Below, one piece after another: positions 8 to 42,906 of a stretch of 52,377 nt of DNA. Position 1 is the first letter of the stretch. Each line of letters begins with the position of its first letter. Source of the stretch: Paludibacteraceae bacterium (GTDB lineage Bacteria; Bacteroidota; Bacteroidia; Bacteroidales; Paludibacteraceae); NCBI GenBank assembly GCA_017546705.1, contig JAFYSB010000010.1:1-52377 (forward strand), read 5' to 3'. The translations under genes and the position numbers were made by a program. The notes beneath the pieces were generated by a model. The model was not told where the DNA came from, searched no databases, and saw only the letters and a program-made list of their open reading frames with translations.

Positions 8-174
8 AAAAAGCGTTTTAGCTTATATTCGGGCTTCTGAAACTTCGACACTTTCAAAACACCACGAATTAAGTGATGACGTTCATGCTACAGCGTGAAC
101 ATTATTCATTTATTTGGTGTTAAGGTAGTCGAAGACCTCAGGAGCGAATAAAAGAATATTGTCCGCGCTTTTTT
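8..174 (+). ncRNA. Structured leader RNA element E1 (candidate cis-regulatory RNA)
   Basis: This element lies 80 bases before the exported-protein gene on the same strand. Hand folding gives a rod: closing helix AAAAAGCG (8-15) with CGCTTTTT (166-173); helix D 22-31 with 145-154, one mismatch; helix A CTTCTG (34-39) with CAGGAG (139-144), one G-U; internal loop AAA (40-42) facing ACCT (135-138); helix B CTTCGAC (43-49) with GTCGAAG (128-134); helix C AACACCA (58-64) with TGGTGTT (115-121); apical hairpin GTTCATGC (81-88) with GCGTGAAC (93-100). The same layout with different paired bases recurs in E2 and E3. E1 is the shortest copy and has one apical hairpin rather than two. Its promoter must lie outside the window. 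The function is unknown; the folding is mine and not computed. Confidence 0.72.
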
Positions 175-20618: not shown

Positions 20619-22187
20619 TTAATAGATCAATATCATAGCCACATAGGGTGCGAACTCTTTAATAAGTTCAGTAAAACTACTTTGCTTAGGAGATTTATCT
20701 GTTATATCTTTAATATCGATTGGAGCAGCATCCATCAATTGGTATAAATAACTACTCTTTATTGCATAACCCACATTATCTGCGCCAATAATGCCAGCTG
20801 AGGTTATTCCTACTAAATTCCCTTCTTTATCAAACATTGGTCCTCCACTATTTCCTGGCTGTATTGGAGCGGAAATTTGATAGGCGGATACTTGCCCCTC
20901 ATATCCTGTTTTAGAACTAATGATTCCGTCTGTTACTTTGATTTCTGCTCCCATAGTTTGAGCCATAGGATAACCCATCGTAAAGATAGAAGAGCCTACA
21001 TCAATTGTTCTTTGATATATATTATAAGGGAGAGTGGATATATGTTGAAACTCCTTGTCATCAATCATCAAAAGTGCAAGGTCGTTTATCTTATCAGCGC
21101 ACAAAACTTTAGTAGAGTACGTCTTTATATCTGAAGCTGTTTGTATTTGTACCCTTATCTCGTTCGCTTCATCCACTACATGATTATTGGTTGCAATGAT
21201 ATTTTTGCCAATAAAGAATCCGCTACCATTCCCTTTGAGTTCTTTTGGTTGCTTCTCTTCTTTCTTTTCCTCTTGTTTTACCATAGAAAAGTCTATATCA
21301 TTTTCTGGGTACAGTTTCATAAAGATTGTTTCTACATAGTTTTTAGTGTCATATAGCGTTATTTTCTTCTCATGATACTCCAAGTAAAAGTCCGCTTTAG
21401 ATTGCATCTTGTTTTCTAAGTACCAAGAATTAACTTTATACAATCCCGCAGTTGTGGTAGCTGTAAATGTACCCTTTAATTCACCCTCTTTCCATACTTC
21501 ATTGTTTGATCCCTCTAAATAAATTACTTTGTATGTTTCTTTTTCTTTAACAACTGCCAATCGGTGGCGGTTGCTTCCCCAATACTGAGGATTTGATGTG
21601 CTGATAAAATTGTAAATGCCCTCGATAGGAGCAGCAGGCGAATTATCCCAGATATTTCGCAATTTTTCTTCTGTATAGGATGTTTGTGGGGTAGTGTTTT
21701 TATTTTGTGGAACCTCTAATGTATTTACAACAAATGAGGGACATTGATAGTTGCTCTTTTTGAAATCAGCATTACCCGTACCACCATGAAAATGCCATTT
21801 AATTGTACTAACGCCAGCAGGTACACGAGGAAAATAGAATACTGCATGCGCTACTTTCCCCTTATTCTTATTCATGAAATAATTCCAATAAGTAACCTTG
21901 TAGTATCTATTCCATGGCTTGTAATAGCCTTCATATTCAGAAGCCACTAATTTGTATTTTCCAAATGAGCCAGAAATATAGATAGACGCATTTTCGTCTA
22001 ATTCGTGAGAATCAAAGCATCCTGGTTTATTGCTGAGGATTGTTATGTCACAGAAGATTGCAGTATAATCATCATTCGATGCTACACCTGTAATATTCCA
22101 TCTTTGGTCTTTATTCTCAAAAACCATTTGTGCGTTAGCATAACATACGCACAACAAACACATTGTAAAAAATAATAGTCTTTTCAT
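20619..22187 (-). CDS. Exported trypsin-like serine protease with N-terminal accessory domain (cassette A, first gene)
   Basis: The 522-residue product has signal peptide MKRLLFFTMCLLCVCYANAQ. Residues ~21-300 form an accessory region I do not recognise. A Glu/Lys linker (EEKKEEKQPKE, ~306-316) leads to a trypsin-like domain with the full triad: His336 in TNNHVVD, Asp369 in INDLALL, Ser447 in PGNSGGP. The peptidase is of DegP/HtrA type by motif, but no PDZ domain follows; a ~45-residue tail ends in a hydrophobic stretch. It starts 27 bases after RNA element E2. AT-rich codon use sets the gene apart from core neighbours. Confidence 0.88.
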   Translation of the reverse strand: MKRLLFFTMCLLCVCYANAQMVFENKDQRWNITGVASNDDYTAIFCDITILSNKPGCFDSHELDENASIYISGSFGKYKLVASEYEGYYKPWNRYYKVTYWNYFMNKNKGKVAHAVFYFPRVPAGVSTIKWHFHGGTGNADFKKSNYQCPSFVVNTLEVPQNKNTTPQTSYTEEKLRNIWDNSPAAPIEGIYNFISTSNPQYWGSNRHRLAVVKEKETYKVIYLEGSNNEVWKEGELKGTFTATTTAGLYKVNSWYLENKMQSKADFYLEYHEKKITLYDTKNYVETIFMKLYPENDIDFSMVKQEEKKEEKQPKELKGNGSGFFIGKNIIATNNHVVDEANEIRVQIQTASDIKTYSTKVLCADKINDLALLMIDDKEFQHISTLPYNIYQRTIDVGSSIFTMGYPMAQTMGAEIKVTDGIISSKTGYEGQVSAYQISAPIQPGNSGGPMFDKEGNLVGITSAGIIGADNVGYAIKSSYLYQLMDAAPIDIKDITDKSPKQSSFTELIKEFAPYVAMILIY

Positions 22188-22213
22188 ATTATTGATTTTT
22201 ATAAATACACAAC

Positions 22214-22447
22214 AAAAAAGCGTAGACCTCGTGCTGTTTACTTACAGTTCGAGGTCTTAGCATAACCTTAATAGTCAAATAAACAACAGGAAACCTACGC
22301 TGGTATGAAAACATACTACACCTTTCGTAGATGTAGTATGGGTATAATCATACCCATAGGCATTTACTGTTACTTTGATTTTGACTATTAATCTGAAAGT
22401 TGCTAAGTTTCGAACTGTCAAACGCAAAGCGCAATAAACGCTATTTC
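22214..22447 (-). ncRNA. Structured leader RNA element E2 (candidate cis-regulatory RNA)
   Basis: Read on the minus strand, the leader of the protease gene folds like E1. Closing helix AGCGT (in 22438-22447) with ACGCT (22214-22223). Helix A ACAGTTCG (22418-22411) with CGAACTGT (22251-22244). Internal loop AAA (22410-22408) facing ACCT (22255-22252). Helix B CTTAGCA (22407-22401) with TGCTAAG (22262-22256). Helix C is a perfect 12-bp pairing (22391-22380 with 22279-22268). Two apical hairpins follow an AGTAAATGCC motif, which E3 has as AGTAAACGCC. A promoter lies 85 bases before the element. The ATG comes 27 bases after it. Confidence 0.75.
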
Positions 22448-22531
22448 AATATGTCAGAAACCTACCCAAGAAAGAACCTTTGCGAAACGCTTTTCGCAGG
22501 ACATATTTCCCTCCAGCGTAGGATTCGGTTG

Positions 22532-22563
22532 CAAAGGTACAACAAAATTTGCGGATGTGCAAA
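22532..22563 (-). promoter_or_regulatory. Promoter of cassette A
   Basis: Minus strand TTTG (22563-22560), 20 bases, TACCTTTG (22539-22532). Transcription should begin near 22526, giving a leader of about 340 bases that contains E2. Confidence 0.85.
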
Positions 22564-22840
22564 TTTTGAGTGGAAAAAGTGACTGCGATAAAGATTTAAA
22601 CAAAAATACGGGGCTAATGGACAAAGAGAAAATAGAACACTCAACTAGAAGTCGAGACAATAGAAGAATATTTATTTACTCGGCGGGAAATCGCCGAGAA
22701 CTAGATAGGTGGCATAGTACGGGGAAAGTATTGGATGGTAATGGATTGGTATCGAAGTGGTAACGAGAAAGAAAGCGGAAAGATGTATGCAGAAGGTAGG
22801 CGGAAGACAGGGCTGTCCTATAGTGAAAGTTGCTGAATAA

Positions 22841-31814: not shown

Positions 31815-31887
31815 GCGGCAATAGCTCAGTTGGTAGAGCACAACCTTGCCAAGGTTGGGGTCGCGAGTTCGAGTCTCGTTTGCCGCT
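31815..31887 (+). tRNA. tRNA-Gly (anticodon GCC)
   Basis: Acceptor GCGGCAA/TTGCCGC, D-arm GCTCAGTTGGTAGAGC, anticodon arm CAACC-TTGCCAA-GGTTG, T-arm GCGAG-TTCGAGT-CTCGT. The 3' CCA is not encoded. Confidence 0.96.
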
Positions 31888-31988
31888 CTATAGAGATGAG
31901 CAGGACACAGTTCCTGCTTTCATTTTCTAAAAGGGTTCTTTGAATACGGAATAGAATCGGCAGTCGATTCAAGAGTCGCTGACGCAAC

Positions 31989-32070
31989 GCCCAAATGGCG
32001 GAATTGGTAGACGCGCTCGTTTCAGGTGCGAGTGTTGAGAGACGTGCAGGTTCGAGTCCTGTTTTGGGCA
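31989..32070 (+). tRNA. tRNA-Leu (anticodon CAG)
   Basis: Acceptor GCCCAAA/TTTGGGC, class II length with a variable arm (TGTTGAGAGACG), anticodon loop TTCAGGT, T-loop TTCGAGT. CCA is not encoded. Confidence 0.95.
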
Positions 32071-32074
32071 CAAT

Positions 32075-32158
32075 GCGCAGGTGGTGAAATTGGTATACAC
32101 GCTACTTTGAGGGGGTAGTGGTCGCAAGACCGTGTGAGTTCGAGTCTCATCCTGCGCA
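32075..32158 (+). tRNA. tRNA-Leu (anticodon GAG)
   Basis: Acceptor GCGCAGG/CCTGCGC, anticodon loop TTGAGGG, long variable arm TGGTCGCAAGACCGT, T-loop TTCGAGT. It starts four bases after the previous tRNA. The discriminator A is followed by CCA (32159-32161), possibly by chance. Confidence 0.95.
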
Positions 32159-32163
32159 CCAAT

Positions 32164-42436: not shown

Positions 42437-42493
42437 TATGTTATAAAATATTGTGGGAAGTTGGCTCCAAACGCCCCGTTGGTATAAATATAG

Positions 42494-42736
42494 AAAAAGC
42501 GTGGAACCTTACCTTTGCTTATTCTCTGTAACGAGGCTCTGGTAAACCCTTTCGCAAGAATAAGCAAGCAACGCCCACGCCGAATATGAACAGCCACCAA
42601 ACAGAGCAGTCCACGAGGGGACGCTCTGCGGCGGGATAGTCATATCCCAAAGGGCGTTTACTGCCTTCTTGTTTTGGGCGATTGTGAAATTTACCAGATT
42701 TCGTTACACCAAAACAAGCGCTAATAAACGCTTTTT
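42494..42736 (-). ncRNA. Structured leader RNA element E3 (candidate cis-regulatory RNA)
   Basis: On the minus strand it repeats the E1/E2 fold. Closing helix AAAAAGCGT (42736-42728) with ACGCTTTTT (42502-42494). Helix D GCTTGTT (42719-42713) with AATAAGC (42523-42517), one G-U. Helix A GTAACG (42707-42702) with CGTTAC (42533-42528). Internal loop AAAT facing AGCCT. Helix B CTGGTAAA (42697-42690) with TTTACCAG (42546-42539). The motif AGTAAACGCC and a GGGATA-TGAC-TATCCC hairpin parallel E2, and a second ~10-bp apical hairpin follows. Primary sequence outside short motifs differs from E1 and E2. The leader runs from about 42869 to the ATG at 42436. Confidence 0.75.
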
Positions 42737-42874
42737 ATAATATGTCCTCCTGTTTTGCGTCGGTGAGCGACGATATGTTTACTCGCATGCGAGCTGAATT
42801 GGTCAGTCAGTGACTGACTTTTTTCAATCTCCTGACTTATTCCTTAATTTTCTAAGTTGTTGCAATTCTGCCCG

Positions 42875-42906
42875 CAAAGTTACACTTTTTTTTCGAGATG
42901 TGCAAA
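42875..42906 (-). promoter_or_regulatory. Promoter of cassette B
   Basis: Minus strand TTTG (42906-42903), 20 bases, TAACTTTG (42882-42875), giving a leader of about 430 bases containing E3. Confidence 0.83.

Follow-up and report, generated by a model that had tools for sequence, protein, structure and literature searches.

The elements described here form, with a probability that we place a little above even, a single family of uncatalogued, structured leader RNAs at the 5′ end of Bacteroidota messages, which would act in cis on the gene behind and would pass between two states. We prefer this reading because the promoter upstream, the position before a gene, the covariation of one strand (b) with two partners at once and a further pairing (S) all fit it.

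Elements in the window

The window is the whole stretch of DNA that was analysed, 52,377 nt of contig JAFYSB010000010.1 (assembly GCA_017546705.1) from a Paludibacteraceae bacterium. A preliminary description, made from its letters, had reported three elements (E1, E2 and E3) with one common fold. A sequence check found every quoted strand in its place, and the common fold proved real, on the basis of folding compared with dinucleotide shuffles (z -7.5, -6.4 and -5.5 for the E1, E2 and E3 stretches) and of helices A and B set around an AAA/ACCT internal loop in 137 of the 145 elements, from 80 genomes, of our table. Our covariance model R1, built from 11 elements of the own genome after removal of the variable distal hairpin, places E1 at 8–173 (+), E2 at 22215–22446 (-) and E3 at 42494–42736 (-), matches that arise by construction since all three are among its training sequences.

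E1 (8–173, +) is of the short class; the contig begins just upstream and its promoter lies outside the window. At 33–49 (+) it has the 5′ arm of helix A (33–39), AAA (40–42) and the 5′ arm of helix B (43–49), and at 128–145 (+) the 3′ arm of B (128–134), ACCT (135–138) and the 3′ arm of A (139–145).

E2 occupies 22214–22455 (-), from GACATATT through the U-run, behind the TAnnTTTG-type promoter element TACCTTTG (22532–22539, -). In the order of its strand it contains strand a (22432–22442), which is the 5′ arm of helix R and also of the closing helix; the 5′ arm of A (22411–22418), AAA and the 5′ arm of B (22401–22407), together 22401–22418; strand a′ (22359–22369), the 3′ arm of R; strand b, GCGTAGG (22294–22300), which is the 3′ arm of D or the 5′ arm of Q; the 3′ arm of B (22256–22262), ACCT and the 3′ arm of A (22244–22251), together 22244–22262; and, at 22214–22228, strand b′ (22220–22228), the 3′ arm of Q, with the U-run (22214–22219). 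The gene behind (20619–22187, -) encodes 522 aa with a signal peptide and a trypsin-like protease domain, assigned from its sequence; one Trypsin_2 match occurs among the 124 proteins scanned below, in output that does not display which. By eye, a 5′ helix AATATGTC/GACATATT (22500–22507 with 22448–22455) lies upstream of E2 and has paired changes in other classes.

E3 (42494–42746, -) follows the promoter element TAACTTTG (42875–42882, -). Its A 5′ arm (42702–42708), AAA and B 5′ arm (42690–42698) span 42690–42708 (-), and its B 3′ arm (42538–42546), GCCT (42534–42537) and A 3′ arm (42527–42533) span 42527–42546 (-). Strand b, GCGTGGG, is at 42574–42580 (-), b′ with the U-run at 42494–42510 (-), and segment s, TTTGGAGCC, at 42463–42471 (-), complementary to GGTTCCA of b′; the pairing S that it would form was tested family-wide. 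The minimum-energy fold of E3 alone contains R and lacks the A/B rod, which for E3 is drawn from comparison.

Copies and phylogenetic distribution

BLAST with E2 gave five near copies in the own genome (83–88% over about 305 bases) and three short second-class matches, and over 41 genomes it matched 16, all of the own genus; since its reach was thus confined, we built covariance models. R1 gave 42 matches in the own genome at E<=1 and 30 at E<=0.001, one of which overlaps another, leaving 29 places in 2.1 Mb; among them is one pair of identical elements, each on its own contig. Loci L084 and L085 have identical elements and nearly identical genes (98%) on two contigs, as by a recent duplication or an assembly duplicate.

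At E<=0.01, R1 matched 28 of 41 genomes (the own one and 40 relatives), namely the own genome, 22 of 24 relatives of the same genus (all except G013 and G024) and five of 16 from other families. An evenly drawn sample of the order, in which nine candidates were scored per genome, had R1 matches in 85 of 295 genomes and in 58 of 183 genera. A second model (R2), made from 69 short-class elements, was applied to the phylum and at E<=0.001 matched 53 of 395 Bacteroidota genomes, with seven candidates scored in each; eight of the 53 lie outside the class. Further homologues, for which the preliminary description had proposed a search of Bacteroidales genomes, were found in the genus, the order and the phylum.

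A short-class sequence pattern occurs in at least 119 stretches of named genomes. Among the 80 matches listed, one title is non-Bacteroidota (a Fibrobacter MAG, L198) and one reads 'uncultured bacterium', and A/B pairing is absent by a simple rule in six (L198, L199, L223, L226, L244 and L250). Also among the matches listed are MAGs of Alistipes senegalensis and Porphyromonas cangingivalis and isolates of Chryseobacterium culicis and Terrimonas pollutisoli, as well as Paludibacteraceae records with the element class of the window. Viral contigs gave no exact match to this one pattern, which covers the short class only, and a plasmid search gave none for E2 and one weak match for L312. Window position 1 and several contig ends adjoin copies, as if repeats had broken the assembly.

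Covarying helices

The parse A - RAA - B ... B′ - RCCU - A′, in its strict form, fits all except eight of the 145 elements. When mutual information was calculated from 144 aligned sequences, the first ten ranks were ten pairs of A and B; pairs of R (22:85, rank 12; 21:86, rank 41) and of Q (114:187, rank 14; 110:191, rank 26) were also raised, and many pairs outside any helix also fell within the first 110 ranks. The paired fraction was 0.922 for A (0.560 in shuffles), 0.973 for B (0.686), 0.944 for R (0.876), 0.968 for Q (0.928) and 0.927 for D (0.887). Cells with both sides changed, in which related sequences are counted more than once, numbered 360 for A (120 in shuffles), 277 for B (83), 49 for R (11), 37 for Q (7) and 48 for D (16). 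Examples of compensation are GCGTAG:CTACGC, GTGTGG:CCACAC (L074) and GCATGGG:CCCATGC (L154) in Q, and GTGTT:AACAC (L074) and GCATT:AATGT (L100) in R.

In the 69-element alignment, the covariation score of A, B, R and Q together was 0.523 against 0.186 in shuffled and at most 0.122 in slid controls; there, 17 pairs were changed on both sides, a number equalled or exceeded in 60 of 500 shuffles, and two outer B pairs were mostly unpaired. On these grounds we regard the family as having a selected RNA secondary structure, as judged by comparison. The preliminary description had taken changes on both sides of at least two helices as a sign of selection; covariation of A and B lies far above the shuffles and the combined score above both the shuffled and the slid controls, and the outer helix D, which it had called kept, is likewise supported by its double changes.

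Its closing helix, AAAAAGCG/CGCTTTTT, survives as one pairing of those strands and not as their sole one. The G-C part is 0.977 paired (0.971 in shuffles) with 3 double-change cells (0.4), and the A-U part 0.875 (0.870) with 9 (4.5), whereas R and Q, the alternative pairings, covary more: in R the 5′ AGCGU pairs with the middle ACGCU, and in Q the 3′ CCCACGC pairs with the middle GCGUGGG. Pairing P1 together with D scored 0.215 against 0.150 shuffled, D holding 26 of the 28 double-change cells. In the 34 discriminating rows, P1 was kept in 25, Q in 27 and R in 32; the three have similar letters, so that P1 may still form. Both R and Q cross the A/B rod, and they would therefore be pseudoknots if formed together with it. 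The local 5′ hairpin AAGC/GCTT in strand a showed covariation no higher than controls.

A strand common to two helices

Strand b (GCGUGGG) is common to D and Q. Of the 36 cells where b departs from the consensus, related rows being counted apart, 32 retain D, 24 retain Q and 21 retain both, against eight for each helix with the partners at consensus; nine Q failures are a U facing a U at the end of Q. As read from sequence, b covaries at once with two mutually exclusive partners, as is characteristic of a two-state switch.

A segment s that is complementary to the left part of b′ (pairing S) recurs past the U-run. The best runs averaged 5.89 in native and 5.37 +- 0.06 in swapped combinations (z 8.2), and a score of 7 or more was reached by 43 of 188 native and 8.5% of swapped ones. 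In six of nine copies from other families, s is clear by eye in a hairpin loop before the start codon, whereas many copies have a weak S or none, including E2, whose 27 nt before the ATG contain no hairpin. Directly before the U-run, an additional hairpin of the E2 class, AGACCTCG/CGAGGTCT (window 22250–22257 and 22224–22231), would break helix A and is possibly a class-specific substitute for S. A simple terminator scan did not flag the E2 U-run; Q followed by the U-run fits an attenuator, yet the loop of Q is about 60 nt.

We propose the following mechanism. The TAnnTTTG promoter would drive transcription of each element, and helices A, B and C would form a rod bearing the conserved internal loop, GAAA facing RCCUC. 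The mid-strand b would pair either upstream, in hairpin D, or with b′ just before the U-run, in Q; in many copies b′ may instead pair with s beyond the U-run, in S, often in a hairpin loop near the start codon. The two exchanging states would then be D with S on one side and Q on the other. Q beside the U-run would stop RNA polymerase and lower expression, and/or S would alter ribosome access near the start codon. Comparison supports the family, its promoter and position, helices A, B, R, D, Q and S and the double covariation of b; from these we infer that the RNA passes between its states in the cell, which way this acts, which step is regulated and that the conserved loop holds a sensor.

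Promoter and downstream genes

Of 141 elements, 116 have the Bacteroidota promoter motif TAnnTTTG 30–190 nt upstream; of 286 control windows, 28 contain it. Among the 72 of the 145 elements that have at least 700 nt of sequence on both sides, 63 have the start of a same-strand ATG ORF of at least 100 aa no more than 250 nt away, against five on the divergent side. On the coding strand, the element stands after the promoter and ahead of the start codon. At L079, a second TAnnTTTG promoter-like site lies between the element and a C10-type peptidase gene.

The preliminary description had placed a signal-peptide gene 27–80 bases behind each copy. This holds for the window, where the gaps to genes with export signals are about 80 (E1), 27 (E2) and 57 nt (E3), and across the family it is common but no rule: of 209 distinct first ORFs, 138 scored as exported, and of the 39 genes of the window 16 did so, by a home-made, rough heuristic with the genes of that one window as its control; eight further elements had no first ORF by the rule. 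Pfam models were scanned with 124 of the 209 first proteins; LRR_5 was most frequent (10), with Por_Secre_tail (6) and CsgG (3), restriction or defence models were matched by single proteins, and the 124 shared no common family or pathway. Capsule-type gene operons follow some copies, and some gene families retain the leader across different bacterial families. By their predicted products the downstream genes are accessory, two thirds of them exported under this rough heuristic.

The excess of exported products, together with the capsule-type operons, is what speaks for a protein-recruiting leader that needs no small ligand and would serve, for example, in antitermination, mRNA stability or the targeting of exported-protein mRNAs. 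We regard this as a tentative alternative, possible though well short of even, because a third of the genes, restriction and regulatory ones included, are non-exported and the protein partner is putative.

Comparison with known RNAs

With Rfam 15 at gathering scores, the window contains three tRNAs and nothing else, and 33 further loci gave no match within the element, only tRNA and, outside it, DUF805b RNA; a permissive scan of 22100–22700 gave ten weak matches far below the gathering scores. Three tRNA genes (Gly, Leu and Leu) lie at 31815–32161. The preliminary description had suggested this Rfam comparison and the element matches no known family in the window or at the 33 loci; together with the homologues and the covariation, this supports its view of a selected leader RNA. 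The element is probably an uncatalogued gene-control RNA. A literature search, in which supplements and many journals were beyond reach so that an earlier sighting is possible, did not find it described. A 2017 paper reportedly lists 224 candidate RNAs, and the element may have been sighted there. The main texts of PMC11109978 and PMC8632094 contained none of six Bacteroidota names on a word search.

DUF805b RNA (RF02914) is an Rfam cis-regulatory motif that occurs in the same leaders, lying between element and start codon at three of the 33 loci (L092:945-979, -; L102:1291-1325, -; L190:739-773, +); unlike the element, it is one small hairpin of 35 nt, and it lies outside the element. Near 195–230, behind E1, a stretch resembles DUF805b RNA by eye. 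The epsC RNA (RF01735), also called EAR, and JUMPstart (RF01707) are leaders of polysaccharide operons. They resemble the element in standing before surface-related operons, and differ in occurring in other phyla, according to PMC2864571; the present elements have no Rfam match and precede genes of many kinds. The FopS and GibS small RNAs of Bacteroides are likewise a multi-copy paralogous family in Bacteroidota, with 12–15 copies per genome, and FopS has a single-stranded 5′ stretch and a terminator hairpin and acts in trans, as given in PMC11697453. An identity with FopS was rejected, as the long paired, pseudoknotted leader before genes does not fit that description, from which it is set apart by architecture.

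The elements are best read as a class of cis-regulatory leaders, so far uncatalogued, that would operate through a conformational switch. Riboswitch and attenuator leaders are a general class with mutually exclusive helices. They share with the elements the position in a 5′ leader, a conserved internal loop, a strand common to two alternative helices and a U-run after one of these; here, unlike there, no ligand or Rfam family is known, the Q loop is about 60 nt and one stem changes faster than the rest. A riboswitch proper, with a small molecule at the internal loop and the D/Q exchange as expression platform, would account for the complex pseudoknotted fold, the conserved unpaired GAAA/RCCUC, the many copies before surface-related genes and the alternative pairings; with its ligand putative and no common pathway among the 124 downstream proteins scanned, we consider it rather doubtful.

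A fast-changing paired stem

In the 137 parsed elements there are 117 distinct 7-mers of helix A and 37 of helix B. Integron attC sites keep conserved core letters in their pairing arms, and the number of A 7-mers rules them out. G.U pairs make up 0–6% at A pairs 1–7 (13% at pair 8) and under 1% at B pairs 1–7. We compared 47 disjoint pairs of elements whose divergence, helices A and B left aside, is below 20%: in the A5 arm 128 of 326 sites differ, against 667 of 3951 in the middle plus C5 (Fisher p 8e-20), with flanks at 9–11%, A being the more divergent part in 36 pairs and not in 11, and B did not differ from the middle in these pairs (p 0.28). In the closest 39 pairs, which are not independent, A differs by 42% and the middle by 13%. 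Two elements of different genomes, L061 and L173, have 2 differences in 76 middle positions, against 4 in the 7 of A and 2 in the 7 of B, with pairing retained. By these comparisons, A changes about 2–3 times faster than other variable parts and stays almost purely Watson-Crick paired.

No cis partner of A emerged. Exact 6-mers in the 300-nt flanks of 136 elements were not above swapped means overall: A5 gave 14 downstream and 10 upstream (swapped 10.6 and 10.7), and A3 gave 7 and 10 (11.8 and 9.2). Best runs of A against five leader parts gave |z| of at most 2.2 in 20 tests. Uniqueness within a genome was rejected as the cause of the variability, since it is not strict: 26 own copies have 23 distinct A sequences, three sharing the letters CCAATAG, and two of the copies are identical. 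The fast change could come from selection for change or from a local mutational process. We think it unlikely, though worth stating, that diversifying selection acts on A, and sometimes on B, as the private address of a phylum-wide RNA switch. The letters of the stem would be replaced almost wholesale between near-identical copies with pairing kept, for telling paralogues apart or escaping a partner that acts in trans, for instance an RNA of a phage or competitor, or a nuclease.

Other readings and significance

A separate small RNA ending at the U-run, with the gene behind merely adjacent, would have its own promoter and U-run and, in some classes, a local hairpin immediately ahead of CGCTTTTT (in E2, for example, AGACCTCG/CGAGGTCT); we judge it improbable, as a same-strand gene almost always lies just behind and S extends past the U-run. 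The weakest reading, which we hold to be highly improbable, is a mobile element or one that works at the level of DNA (a single strand of DNA that folds, or a recombination or insertion site). It would agree with the near-identical copies within a genome, with the near lack of G.U in helices A and B and with some contigs that break near copies, but promoter and gene orientation are kept, some gene families hold the leader across bacterial families, the viral and plasmid searches gave the results described above, and the upstream promoter together with the G.U pairs common in R, D and Q favours RNA over a folded DNA site.

Taken as a two-state cis-acting leader, the reading that we prefer, the element would be a handle on the control of surface, secretion and restriction genes in Bacteroidota. 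With 29 copies in one genome, a spread over gut, oral and environmental Bacteroidota and no Rfam match, it would rank among the commoner uncharacterised leader RNAs of the phylum. A stem that changes fast and yet remains paired poses a new question on RNA evolution, and, if the stem is indeed a private address, this would be a regulatory RNA that evolves like a recognition locus.
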